From contig NZ_JAIQZE010000007.1 of the NCBI RefSeq assembly GCF_020164595.1, positions 62,001 to 126,000 of the forward strand: a DNA stretch of 64,000 nt. Direction: 5' to 3'. Shown one piece after another: positions 43,963 through 62,183 of this stretch. This DNA is from Psychroflexus longus (GTDB lineage Bacteria > Bacteroidota > Bacteroidia > Flavobacteriales > Flavobacteriaceae). Position numbers and translations under genes: made by a program. Positions within the stretch are counted from its first letter, which is position 1. The number at the start of each line of letters is the position of its first letter. The notes beneath the pieces are model-generated. The model had not been told where the DNA came from, searched no databases, and saw only the letters and a program-made list of their open reading frames with translations.

Positions 43963-44460
43963 ATGGAAGAATTTTTAAAAGACTTACCAAATCTTGCCAA
44001 AGATAAACATAAAACGCACAAGGATTTCTTCAAACGATTGAAAAAGCGACCTCCAAAGCACCTGGATCAAACCATGCAGGTATTGCACGATGAAACTTTT
44101 GAAGAAATAGATTGCTTAACCTGTGCCAGTTGCTGTAAAACTACAGGACCCTTGTTTACAAATAAAGATATGGAAAGGATCTCAAAGCATTTTAAGATGA
44201 AACCTTCTGTATTTATTGATACTTATCTTAGAATTGATGAGGACAATGATTACGTGTTACAAAGTGTTCCTTGTCCATTTTTAGGAACAGACAATTATTG
44301 TTCTATCTATAAAGTAAGACCTAAAGCTTGTGCAGAATTTCCACACACTGATCGTAAAAAATTCCAACAGATTTCAAATCTTACTTTAAAGAATGTTGAA
44401 ATTTGTCCTGCTACTTACAAAATCGTAGAAAAAATGATGGAACAGATTAAACTGAAATAA
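43963..44460 (+). CDS. YkgJ family cysteine-cluster protein
   Basis: A 165-residue protein of the YkgJ (UPF0153) family, which carries a conserved cysteine set thought to bind zinc or an iron-sulfur cluster. Visible Cys motifs: CLTCASCCKTTGP (CxxCxxCC) and PCPFLGTDNYCSIYKVRPKAC. There is no signal peptide, so it is cytoplasmic. Function is unknown in the family. It is divergent from the methyltransferase, and its last 14 bases overlap the end of the decarboxylase gene on the other strand. Confidence 0.9.
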   Translation: MEEFLKDLPNLAKDKHKTHKDFFKRLKKRPPKHLDQTMQVLHDETFEEIDCLTCASCCKTTGPLFTNKDMERISKHFKMKPSVFIDTYLRIDEDNDYVLQSVPCPFLGTDNYCSIYKVRPKACAEFPHTDRKKFQQISNLTLKNVEICPATYKIVEKMMEQIKLK

Positions 44461-45826
44461 GTTGAGATTCCTTTTCTTCTACATAAGTTTCAAGGACTTT
44501 GAAAAAGTTCATGATATCGTCTGACTTATTGTTTGAGTTGATGGTGACTAACCTAACAAAAACTTCTCCCTGAAATTCGCCATAACCCACCATAAGTTTG
44601 CCGTCTTCATATAAGGAATTGCATAAATCTTTTGGATCTACATTTTTATAATTGAAGCAGACAGAGATTGAATCTTCATAAGAATAAAGCTTATAATCAG
44701 GGTGATTCTCAACATAATTGCGAGCTGTCTCAGCTAAGCTGAATTGCTGATCTATCATACTTTCAAGGCCTTTTGTTCCTACTGATTTCCACAGAGTCCA
44801 AAACTTCAGTGCATCATTTCTTCTTCCGCACTGTAAAGAAGTTTTTCCCAAGTTATACTCATCATCATCAGTTTGGTATAAGTAATCTGCTTCGCAGGCA
44901 AAACTATGTTTGAGATTATGCTTTTCTTTTGTAATCAAAATTGAACAGCTCAAAGGTACATTCAGCATCTTGTGAGCATTGAAACTGAAAGAATCTGCTT
45001 TTTCAACGCCGTCAACCAGGTGCTTGTAAGTTTCACTAAATATGACAGAACCACAGTAAGCTCCATCTACATGTAACCACAAGTTTTCATAATTTTTGGT
45101 AATGTCATGAATGGCATTGATGTCGTCAAAAGCACCCAATACTGTTGTTCCAGCTGTGGCATTAACAAAGAAGGGTTTAAGGCCATCTTTTATGTCAGAT
45201 TCAATTTGCTTTTGAAGAGCTTCAGGTATCATTTTACCAAACTCGTCAACTTTTACATTTCTTATTTGATTTATACCTATTCCCCCAAACATAGCATTTT
45301 TGGTAATAGAATAATGAGAAGCTGAAGAGGTATAAATTACCATTTTTTCAGAAACCCCCTCAAATTTTATGTCTCTATTATAAGCATCTCTAGCCATTAG
45401 CATAGCCATAAAATTACTCATAGAACCGCCAGGTGGAAATGTACCGTCGGCATTTTTTCCAAAGTTGAGCATCTCACAAACCTTGGAAATTATAACTTTT
45501 TCAATGCCTACTTGTGGTCCACCAACTTTGTAGGTGTACATGCTATTATTTAACATTACAGCAAGTAATTCTCCAAGCGTTCCTTTATTATTTCTTCCGC
45601 CGAAGAGTTGGTTAAAAAATAATTTGGTAGATGTTCTTGGAGTACTTAAAACAACTTCTTCAAGTAATGATTCTAATGTATTTTGATTTATACCCTCAGG
45701 GCTTAGATCAAGATCCAATATATCGAGCAATTTTTCAGCTTTAATTGGTTTTACGACACCATTTTTTTTCTCGTGAGTTAAAAGTTTATCTGAAATTTTC
45801 TGAAATAGTTCAAGGTCTGCTTGCAT
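44447..45826 (-). CDS. PLP-dependent group II decarboxylase, probable cysteine sulfinate decarboxylase
   Basis: A 459-residue pyridoxal-phosphate decarboxylase. The PLP lysine is Lys286 in FNAHKMLN. The stretches FFNQLFGG, PGGSMSNFMAM, ATAGTTVLGAFD, LWLHVDGAYCGS and LQCGRRNDALKFWTLWK follow animal cysteine-sulfinate/glutamate decarboxylases segment by segment as I remember them. The reaction would be cysteine sulfinate to hypotaurine (or aspartate or glutamate to beta-alanine or GABA). The call of cysteine sulfinate rests on the divergent neighbour, a cysteine dioxygenase 71 bases away, which makes that substrate. Aspartate 1-decarboxylation is the main alternative. Confidence 0.85.
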   Translation of the reverse strand: MQADLELFQKISDKLLTHEKKNGVVKPIKAEKLLDILDLDLSPEGINQNTLESLLEEVVLSTPRTSTKLFFNQLFGGRNNKGTLGELLAVMLNNSMYTYKVGGPQVGIEKVIISKVCEMLNFGKNADGTFPPGGSMSNFMAMLMARDAYNRDIKFEGVSEKMVIYTSSASHYSITKNAMFGGIGINQIRNVKVDEFGKMIPEALQKQIESDIKDGLKPFFVNATAGTTVLGAFDDINAIHDITKNYENLWLHVDGAYCGSVIFSETYKHLVDGVEKADSFSFNAHKMLNVPLSCSILITKEKHNLKHSFACEADYLYQTDDDEYNLGKTSLQCGRRNDALKFWTLWKSVGTKGLESMIDQQFSLAETARNYVENHPDYKLYSYEDSISVCFNYKNVDPKDLCNSLYEDGKLMVGYGEFQGEVFVRLVTINSNNKSDDIMNFFKVLETYVEEKESQLISV

Positions 45827-45897
45827 AAGCCTTATTTGAAATTTATATTTACTAATATTCGAATAATACTGTAATTAGATAAAAATAATTAAAAAGC

Positions 45898-46434
45898 ATG
45901 GACTCTTCAGAAAACATAACATCTTTAAAGAAACTTTTAGAAGTTTTGCCACATTGTGAAGGTCAGGATTATTTTGATTTAGCAAAAAATTTATCAATTC
46001 CTGACGAAGAACTTCTTCCTTTCGCTTTTTGGTCTGATCATAATTACACTAGAAATTGTGTGCACAGAACCAATGATTATGAACTTTTACTCTTATGCTG
46101 GGAGGAAGGCCAAGAGACACCTATACATTGCCATAATGGCGAAGAATGTTGGGTTTATCTTGCAAAAGGAAAATTGAGAGAGAAAAGATATGTAGATAAA
46201 GATGGAGGACTTGAGTTGATTGCCGACGTGAAAATGACTCAAGATAGACTATCTTATATGAATGATGATCTTGGTTATCATTCTTTACACAACTTGCATG
46301 ATGGCAGATCAATGAGTTTACACTTGTATGTGGGACCAATCGACGAATGTTCTGTTTATAAAGAAGAAAAGGATAAATTTGTCTTTAAAGAATTAGATTA
46401 CTATTCAGAAAATAAAAAAATACTTTCAAACTAA
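45898..46434 (+). CDS. Cysteine dioxygenase-type cupin
   Basis: A 178-residue thiol dioxygenase that oxidises cysteine to cysteine sulfinate at a non-haem iron. Iron ligands are His77 and His79 (IHCHNGEEC) and His128 (GYHSLHN). Cys84 lies five residues after His79 and Tyr144 is in LHLY, matching the Cys93-Tyr157 pair that cross-links in mammalian enzymes; many bacterial relatives have Gly at the Cys position. NYTRN at about 51-55 carries the arginine that should hold the substrate carboxylate. It is divergent from the putative cysteine sulfinate decarboxylase, with menB 13 bases downstream. Confidence 0.9.
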   Translation: MDSSENITSLKKLLEVLPHCEGQDYFDLAKNLSIPDEELLPFAFWSDHNYTRNCVHRTNDYELLLLCWEEGQETPIHCHNGEECWVYLAKGKLREKRYVDKDGGLELIADVKMTQDRLSYMNDDLGYHSLHNLHDGRSMSLHLYVGPIDECSVYKEEKDKFVFKELDYYSENKKILSN

Positions 46435-46447
46435 ATAAAAACTACAG

Positions 46448-47281
46448 ATGAACTGGAAAACGGTTAAAGAATATACTGATATTACTTATAAGAAAAGCGG
46501 CGGAGTTGCAAGAATAGCTTTCAACAGACCGGAAGTCAGAAATGCATTTCGCCCCAAAACAGTCGGTGAACTTTTTGAAGCATTCCTGGATGCGAGAGAA
46601 GATCCAAACATTGGAGTAGTTTTATTCTCTGGAGAAGGGCCTTCTCCAAAAGATGGTAAATACGCATTTTGCAGTGGTGGAGACCAAAATGCTCGAGGTC
46701 ACCAAGGTTACGTCGATGACGATGGAACTCCAAGACTGAATATTTTGGAAGTACAAAGGCTGATAAGATTTATGCCTAAAGTTGTTATTGCAGTTGTCCC
46801 CGGATGGGCCGTTGGTGGCGGACACTCCTTACATGTGGTGTGCGATCTTACTCTGGCGAGCAAGGAACACGCTATTTTCAAACAAACAGACGCAGATGTA
46901 ACAAGTTTTGACGGTGGTTATGGTTCCGCTTATTTAGCAAAAATGGTAGGTCAGAAAAAGGCTAGAGAGATTTTCTTTTTAGGTAGAAATTATAGCGCAC
47001 AAGAGGCTTTTGATATGGGGATGGTAAATGCAGTAATTCCTCATGACGAATTAGAAGACACTGCTTATGAGTGGGCTCAGGAGATTTTAGAAAAATCACC
47101 AACGTCTATTAAAATGCTAAAGTTTGCTTTCAACGCTACTGATGATGGAATGGTAGGGCAGCAAGTTTTTGCAGGTGAAGCTACTCGATTGGCCTATATG
47201 ACAGACGAAGCAAAAGAAGGAAGAAACGCGTTTCTGGAAAAAAGAAAACCTGACTTCAAAAATATTAAATGGATTTCCTAA
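46448..47281 (+). CDS. menB: 1,4-dihydroxy-2-naphthoyl-CoA synthase
   Basis: A 277-residue crotonase-fold enzyme that closes the naphthoquinone ring in menaquinone biosynthesis. MenB-specific segments: RNAFRPKTVGEL, YAFCSGGDQNARGHQGYVDDDG, VPGWAVGGGHSLHVVCDLT, SFDGGYGSAYLAKMVGQKKA and the C-terminal EGRNAFLEKRKPDFKNI. Length and motifs are normal. It follows the cysteine dioxygenase by 13 bases, which may put it in that transcript, although the pathways are unrelated. No other men genes are in the window. Confidence 0.97.
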   Translation: MNWKTVKEYTDITYKKSGGVARIAFNRPEVRNAFRPKTVGELFEAFLDAREDPNIGVVLFSGEGPSPKDGKYAFCSGGDQNARGHQGYVDDDGTPRLNILEVQRLIRFMPKVVIAVVPGWAVGGGHSLHVVCDLTLASKEHAIFKQTDADVTSFDGGYGSAYLAKMVGQKKAREIFFLGRNYSAQEAFDMGMVNAVIPHDELEDTAYEWAQEILEKSPTSIKMLKFAFNATDDGMVGQQVFAGEATRLAYMTDEAKEGRNAFLEKRKPDFKNIKWIS

Positions 47282-60680: not shown

Positions 60681-62183
60681 TTGAAGGCTTTAAATCCTAA
60701 AAATCAATTAATTCTTGCAAGCCTTGTTATTCTTGGATTTATAGGCGTATTATTTTTGATTTTTCCTAAAAATTCTTTTGAGGTCATCAACACAGTTTCA
60801 ACTCGGGTGAGAACCTTTTTCGGGAAATTATACTTGGTTTTAGGCTTGTTTATAGTGGTGTATTTGCTGGTAATAGGATTTTCTCCCTTAGGAAAAATAA
60901 AATTAGGTTCTAGCTCACCAGAATATTCAACTCCGTCCTGGCTAGCCATGATGTATTCTACAGGAATGGGAGCAGGCATCATTTTAAGAGCAGTTCAGGA
61001 ACCTATATTTATGATGAAGCACCCGAATCTGCAAATCTCAAGACCTAGTGAAATTCATGGATTGGAAATGACTTTTTATCATTGGGGTTTTACAGCCTGG
61101 GGGTTTTATGGCCTTTTTGCTTTATTCATTGCGTATTTATTATTTGTCAAGAAAAAAAATATTCAGTTGAGCCAAATTATTCCTAAACTATCCAATTCAT
61201 TTTCAACTAAACTTATAGACTTACTCGTGATTCTTACTACAGTTTTTGGCGTAGTGAGTGCAGTTGCTTTAGGAATTAGACAAGTAGAAGGAGGGATAAA
61301 TTTTATTACAGAGTCTACTCTTGGTGTTTATCTTAGCATCATACTTTGTGTTTTAATCTTTTCATTTGCGATTTTCTCTTCTATAAAAGGTTTAAGCAAC
61401 GGGATCAGGCGTTTATCCAATGTCAACATAATACTTACTTTGTTATTGCTTGCTTATGTGATGTTCAATAGTGACATCAGCTTAATTTTATCAAATCTTT
61501 GGCAGTCTGTTTTAGCCTTGCTTCAGGATTTCATTCCGTTAAGTTTAGCAATTGGTGAGTTCAATTTTAGCGAACAATTTTTATCAGATTGGACCTATTA
61601 TTATTGGGCTTTCTGGTTGGCTTGGGCACCTTTTACAGGAATTTTTATCGCTAGAATTTCCAAAGGGCGCAGTATACGACAACTTATTTTAGGTGTGCTC
61701 ATTGTTCCAAGTTTAGGGTCATTTCTATGGTTTACAAGTTTTGGAACATCTGCTATTGAACTGATAAATGCTGATGTCGTTTCAAGTTTTGCATTTGATA
61801 ATGTCTTCACTTCAACTTTTGTGCTTTTGGAACAATTCCCACTTGGTTTTTATGCGGTTATTTTGGCTATTCTGCTTTTATTAGGATTTTTAATTACTTC
61901 TGCCGATTCGGCTATTTTTGTCCTGGGAATGTTTTCAGACTTAACCAAAATCAATCCTTCTACTTTCCATAAATCGACATGGGGAATTTTACTGTTCCTG
62001 ATCTCTTTGGGATTTTTGATGATAGGAAGGTTTAGTGAGGCTGAAGATGTTTTGGAAGCTGTTCAAAAGCTTCTTATAGTCAGCTCATTGGCTTTAGCTT
62101 TGCTCAGTATAGTTTTCATCATTGGATTTACCTTTGGTCTTAATAGTCACTATAAATCCAAAAAGGATCAAATTCAGATGTAG
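60681..62183 (+). CDS. BCCT-family transporter (betaine/carnitine/choline type), TTG start
   Basis: A 500-residue, 12-helix transporter of the BCCT family, which takes up glycine betaine, choline, carnitine or DMSP, often for osmotic protection. Visible signatures: GMGAGIILRAVQEP, the WGFTAWGFYGLF helix, and the BCCT consensus WAFWLAWAPFTGIFIARISKGRSIR (positions about 300-335). An in-frame stop lies nine bases upstream and no ATG occurs before residue 90, so TTG at 60681 is the most likely start. It lies nine bases after the DUF2461 gene. Substrate not predictable from sequence. Confidence 0.93.
   Translation: MKALNPKNQLILASLVILGFIGVLFLIFPKNSFEVINTVSTRVRTFFGKLYLVLGLFIVVYLLVIGFSPLGKIKLGSSSPEYSTPSWLAMMYSTGMGAGIILRAVQEPIFMMKHPNLQISRPSEIHGLEMTFYHWGFTAWGFYGLFALFIAYLLFVKKKNIQLSQIIPKLSNSFSTKLIDLLVILTTVFGVVSAVALGIRQVEGGINFITESTLGVYLSIILCVLIFSFAIFSSIKGLSNGIRRLSNVNIILTLLLLAYVMFNSDISLILSNLWQSVLALLQDFIPLSLAIGEFNFSEQFLSDWTYYYWAFWLAWAPFTGIFIARISKGRSIRQLILGVLIVPSLGSFLWFTSFGTSAIELINADVVSSFAFDNVFTSTFVLLEQFPLGFYAVILAILLLLGFLITSADSAIFVLGMFSDLTKINPSTFHKSTWGILLFLISLGFLMIGRFSEAEDVLEAVQKLLIVSSLALALLSIVFIIGFTFGLNSHYKSKKDQIQM

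Follow-up and report, generated by a model that had tools for sequence, protein, structure and literature searches.

Hypotaurine, the precursor of taurine, is made from cysteine in animals by two enzymes, cysteine dioxygenase (CDO) and cysteine sulfinate decarboxylase (CSAD). Agnello et al., writing in ACS Chem Biol in 2013, reportedly described a CSAD motif in Synechococcus sp. PCC 7335 and operons with CDO, mentioned marine bacteria, and identified three positions that are said to decide between cysteine sulfinate and glutamate. Passages of published papers report a bacterial taurine pathway and an expressed CSAD of this cyanobacterium, together with the decisive role of three positions in selectivity (PMC8153620), name marine flavobacteria among the organisms with the cysteine route (PMC12585060, a 2025 paper) and call bacterial taurine synthesis sporadic (PMC10356861). 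Taurine synthesis by bacterial CDO and CSAD is thus already known and, since these passages put bacterial cysteine-to-taurine synthesis in print with marine flavobacteria included, the gene pair described here is a well-supported new example and not a new system. It comes from Psychroflexus, a salt-loving marine bacterium in which both enzymes of the animal cysteine-to-hypotaurine route are encoded side by side. Our literature search found no paper on a CDO/decarboxylase pair in Psychroflexus, nor did it meet the symporter link (the symporter was not queried by name) or the PanD-less sister family discussed below.

In the window (the whole stretch of 64,000 nucleotides that was analysed) the two genes lie head to head with a gap of 71 bases, exactly as the original prediction had them (Table 1), and both Pfam families were confirmed: the decarboxylase matches Pyridoxal_deC (PF00282) with 273.6 bits against a cut-off of 27, and the CDO matches CDO_I (PF05995) with 73.6 bits against a cut-off of 23. 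The segment between the divergent genes presumably holds the promoters of both. Among the matches listed, which may omit the genome itself, the nearest named record is that of P. lacisalsi, whose decarboxylase is 96 % identical. We put at about 0.82 the probability that the products of these genes catalyse the first two steps in the oxidation of cysteine sulfur, with hypotaurine, or taurine, as the likely end product. The CDO would oxidize cysteine with O2 to cysteine sulfinate, from which the decarboxylase would remove CO2 to leave hypotaurine; the latter enzyme may perhaps also convert cysteate directly to taurine by loss of CO2. Hypotaurine might then be oxidized to taurine by some other enzyme or non-enzymatically, and the end product would be retained as solute or antioxidant, or else exported.

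Table 1. Coordinates of the features discussed; numbers without a locus label are positions in the window, and codon positions were counted from the decarboxylase start codon at 45826 and verified on the sequence
Feature	Location	Strand	Basis or context
Group II PLP decarboxylase of 459 aa, probably a cysteine sulfinate decarboxylase (CSAD type)	44447..45826	-	Pfam, motif, PDB matches
F-x19-S-x-Y coding stretch (F75 45602-45604, S95 45542-45544, Y97 45536-45538)	45536..45604	-	
Shared upstream region between the divergent genes, 71 bases	45827..45897	.	ORF coordinates
Cysteine dioxygenase (CDO), 178 aa	45898..46434	+	Pfam, rat CDO alignment
menB (1,4-dihydroxy-2-naphthoyl-CoA synthase)	46448..47281	+	
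BCCT family transporter	60681..62183		PF02028, 386 bits; beside DUF2461 and S24-peptidase/HTH genes
PutP-like SSS symporter, examples	L065:7510-9039, L068:10820-12364, L073:10756-12267		
Family f11 loci	L016, L018, L020-L029, L031, L032, L178-L206		

The identity of the CDO and its active-site residues can be read directly from the alignment with the rat enzyme. The predicted iron ligands His77, His79 and His128 fall on rat His86, His88 and His140, a likeness to animal CDO that extends to R52, C84 and Y144 (rat R60, C93 and Y157), and C151 corresponds to rat C164. The residue columns, including the three histidines, R52 and Y144, are invariant across 12 paired CDOs. Mammalian CDO scores about 67 bits against the window protein and the CDO of 3eqe/4qm8, which we take to be that of Bacillus, 36 bits. 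Gln-type relatives of CDO oxidize 3-mercaptopropionate instead, and the window CDO is predicted to oxidize cysteine to cysteine sulfinate. We note that this protein is bacterial and yet has, as judged from the alignment, the cysteine of the eukaryotic Cys-Tyr crosslink (C84, with Y144). Cys93 is described in passages of a review (PMC4019311) as prototypical of eukaryotic CDOs, with many bacterial CDOs lacking it.

The 246 genomes of the same order contain 35 PF05995 matches, of which 13 are CDOs paired with the decarboxylase, a further 13 were aligned, and nine (L056-L059 and five without a locus) were left out of the alignment. The equivalent of Cys93 is present in all 13 paired CDOs and in none of the 13 other aligned rows, 10 of which are also missing the first histidine, the second or both. 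These 10, from other Flavobacteriales (L045, L047-L052 and L060-L062), are CDO_I-family cupins without one or both of the first two iron-binding histidines and apparently form a separate group.

The second gene encodes a group II PLP decarboxylase, as seen from the PF00282 match and the catalytic lysine, K286, which had been predicted and lies within NAHKML; the LQCGRRNDALKFW stretch is also there. At what we take to be the three selectivity positions of Agnello et al. the protein has F75, S95 and Y97 (F-x19-S-M-Y, hereafter F-S-Y) and matches human CSAD (F/S/Y) at all three, whereas the same columns read Y/S/Y in GADL1 and S/N/F in GAD1. According to a passage of PMC7367687, Phe (CSAD) versus Tyr (GADL1) at the first of these positions, X1, separates both enzymes. 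Among solved structures, the best sequence matches are CSAD from human and mouse and GADL1 from mouse, at about 274 bits each, with lower scores for GAD1 (247 bits) and GAD2 (241 bits). The earlier view that places the protein nearer to animal CSAD than to GAD is borne out by PDB score, but GADL1 (6enz, 273.7 bits) is level with CSAD and the bacterial clade does not fall inside CSAD in the tree. In this quick tree, in which long branches meet and only three animal sequences are present, the bacterial decarboxylases form a clade outside animal CSAD, GADL1 and GAD1; this sets them apart from the animal pathway, which otherwise uses the same two enzyme families, and transfer of CSAD from an animal is unsupported. 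The bacterial system differs further from the animal one in that its genes are adjacent. The CSAD of Synechococcus sp. PCC 7335 is alike, by its description, in being a bacterial PLP decarboxylase that acts as a CSAD, although it belongs to a different phylum.

Models of other group II activities all score the window protein far below their cut-offs: glutamate decarboxylase (TIGR01788) with 23.6 bits against 380.4, the PLP-dependent aspartate 1-decarboxylase PanP (TIGR03799) with 131.8 against 606.1, and L-2,4-diaminobutyrate decarboxylase (NF052646) with 187.9 against 900. PanP, like the window protein, is a group II PLP decarboxylase. The first predicted structure (11 rows) has a mean pLDDT of 72.7 and the second (55 rows) one of 84.2; because the motif stretches 65-77 and 94-101 of the latter lie below 50, the active-site assignment is drawn from the sequence alignment. 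In fold comparisons GAD65, GADL1, GAD67 and CSAD are tied at Z-scores of 41.2-42.5 and a diaminobutyrate decarboxylase domain follows at 41.1, which does not discriminate among them; GADL1 is as near as CSAD in fold as well as in score and is distinguished by its Tyr at X1 where the window protein has Phe. Human CSAD itself is slow on aspartate and glutamate, in a passage of PMC8153620, and the substrate therefore cannot be fixed from sequence; the window protein is a probable CSAD. The same genome carries, on contig C6 (L002), one more PLP decarboxylase of group II, only distantly related (26 % identity), and its nearest model is that of diaminobutyrate decarboxylase, with a score far under the cut-off.

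Counted at 48 % identity or more, the decarboxylase is found in 50 of the 246 order genomes, and PF05995 matches in 27, over the cut-off in 25. A CDO with the full set of three His, Arg and Cys residues occurs in 13 genomes and adjoins the decarboxylase in every one of them, eight pairs being divergent and five co-directional with CDO first. Outside a small-genome family (f11, below), the decarboxylase is without CDO in three of 16 genomes (G163, G183 and G095), the first of which is a single-contig, 99 %-complete genome with F-S-Y. A second set, of named loci, comprised the best 80 of 488 relatives, picked by the patterns FFNQLFGG and NNSMYTYK, which favour F-S-Y. In this set of the best 80 of 488, CDO adjoins the decarboxylase at 51 loci, each with a CDO containing H-x-H-x4-C (L124 has a second match without it), and the other 29 genomes either have a CDO over the cut-off elsewhere (eight) or none (21, including one genome whose match stays under the cut-off). 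In 375 genomes drawn from across the phylum, we found the decarboxylase at an E-value of 1e-60 or better in eight, seven of them of the window's own family, and PF05995 matches in eight, of which five are pair genomes. The distant phylum member G371 has a decarboxylase with 38 % identity and F-S-Y; CDO is absent from the 4.3 kb examined and PF05995 matches are absent from its genome.

The 13 of 13 order genomes and 51 of the best 80 of 488 named loci make the pair more than the unique chance adjacency that had been raised as a possible objection. They also bear on the idea that CDO feeds cysteate or sulfinate into the synthesis of sulfonolipids (capnine), with the decarboxylase as a side branch. 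Sulfonolipids do occur in Bacteroidota, but we regard this as highly improbable since the recurrent neighbour of CDO is a decarboxylase that would drain the precursor. Production of hypotaurine remains the best reading because the decarboxylase has CSAD-type residues, the CDO site is of the animal type, the two genes are recurrently adjacent in both arrangements and, as described below, PanD is encoded elsewhere in the genome. These features are seen in the sequence; the substrate, product, role and expression of the pair are inferred.

Motif and CDO were compared over 124 distinct labelled rows, which include the named set chosen by patterns favouring F-S-Y. Rows with F-S-Y have CDO adjacent in 63 cases, elsewhere in eight and none over the cut-off in 20; L093, scored as 'elsewhere', comes from a genome in which a different contig has CDO and a decarboxylase side by side, L139, scored as having none, has one sub-cut-off match in its genome, and the motif of L121 is F-S-Y when aligned. 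All 71 CDO-bearing rows are F-S-Y, and CDO is absent from all 33 rows with another motif (F-S-A 22, Y-S-A 4, Y-S-Y 4, W-S-A 1, W-S-Y 1 and F-S-S 1). The 20 F-S-Y rows without CDO indicate that F-S-Y does not require CDO. A thinned tree of 105 labelled rows requires no fewer than 14 gains or losses of CDO but two or three changes of F-S-Y, and an independent-pairs test of motif against CDO on this tree was not significant, with too few changes. The association between motif and CDO in these alignments is thus suggestive but not proof.

A contrast is provided by family f11, in which 34 genomes of 1.1-2.0 Mb carry relatives at 48-57 % identity. For 29 of these 34 the motif was determined; its third position is Ala in 27, Ser in one and Tyr in one. 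PF05995 and PanD matches are both absent from all 34 genomes; PanC is present in 32, and the CSAD-like decarboxylase is the sole PF00282 gene over the cut-off in all 34 (in G239 as two pieces). The simplest inference from these gene contents is that the f11 decarboxylase makes beta-alanine from aspartate, and it is likely to be a non-orthologous replacement of PanD, whose role these relatives of the window protein may fill. We give an even chance to the broader proposal that the Flavobacteriales decarboxylase has split at one selectivity position, such that forms with F-S-Y, accompanied by a eukaryote-type CDO with the crosslink Cys and often by a sodium symporter, would lead to hypotaurine, while in the small-genome, PanD-less family, mostly with Ala for Tyr, the enzyme would be an aspartate 1-decarboxylase feeding coenzyme A synthesis.

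Family f11 raises the question of whether the window decarboxylase too is mainly an aspartate 1-decarboxylase that produces beta-alanine, like GADL1, insect ADC and PanP, with CDO serving an independent cysteine catabolism. Members of the family are probably capable of this, given the gene content of f11; the F-S-Y rows without CDO point the same way, and GADL1, close in sequence, acts on both aspartate and CSA (in a passage of PMC7367687). However, the genome of the window bacterium differs from those of f11 in encoding PanD elsewhere (169.9 bits), so that its beta-alanine is independent of the window decarboxylase, which is unlikely to be the cell's source of this compound. Moreover, X1 is Phe and X3 is Tyr in every CDO-bearing row whereas the PanD-less family mostly lacks the Tyr, the PanP score is far below that model's cut-off, and the recurrent linkage to CDO would be left unexplained. 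We consider this alternative to be unlikely, and favour decarboxylation of cysteine sulfinate to hypotaurine.

Some of the pairs have a transporter beside them. A PutP-like SSS symporter adjoins the pair in 10 of the 13 order genomes and, among the best 80 of 488 relatives, lies beside 23 of the 51 CDO-linked named loci and none of the 29 without a local CDO; at L163 and L170 it adjoins CDO though the decarboxylase is elsewhere. Three of these symporters were tested and scored under the PutP cut-off and over that of the SSS superfamily, and the solved structures closest to them in sequence belong to sodium symporters of glucose, choline and other substrates. Such linkage, including that to CDO without the decarboxylase, would fit a role of the pair in disposing of excess cysteine, the hypotaurine being excreted, perhaps via the symporter, and not kept. 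This is compatible with the main chemistry, but we hold it to be rather unlikely since SSS symporters normally import, and the loci of Psychroflexus, among them that of the window, have none. The BCCT transporter that the original prediction brought in with a proposed osmolyte role is real and lies in the window, but it is about 14.2 kb from CDO and nothing was found that links it to the pair; we therefore do not regard it as part of the system.

The fate of the hypotaurine predicted for this pair was sought in the 13 genomes that have the pair and in three that lack CDO, 16 in all. Xsc is over the cut-off in none of the 16, with sub-cut-off matches in 14 (the best with 308.5 bits against 676.4), although there was no positive among the 14 control genomes either; TauD matches are likewise absent from all 16, the E. 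coli control being positive. With no Xsc over the cut-off and no TauD in these genomes, an end product fits better than a nutrient, and use of taurine as a nutrient is set aside. FMO-like matches occur in seven of the 16 and exceed the cut-off of the family in five, and two are in the window's own genome. They are partial, mostly covering positions 54-215 of 532 and at longest 4-331 (in G206), which is a further departure from the animal pathway, and in our judgement they are not hypotaurine oxidases that would supply the last step. The hypotaurine part of the proposed hypotaurine/taurine route is thus supported and, because these matches are partial, better so than taurine; the osmolyte role is unsupported.

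If the reading is correct, synthesis of hypotaurine or taurine would recur in marine and saline Flavobacteriales, beyond animals, algae and one cyanobacterium, and this would bear on the source of dissolved taurine in the sea. The decarboxylase family would also offer a natural test of one active-site residue separating cysteine sulfinate from aspartate decarboxylation. We note finally that menB begins 13 bases past the CDO stop codon on the same strand; this neighbour is absent from the available stretches of the other pair genomes except G039, where it is likewise found beside CDO, and in the window menB and CDO are perhaps co-transcribed.
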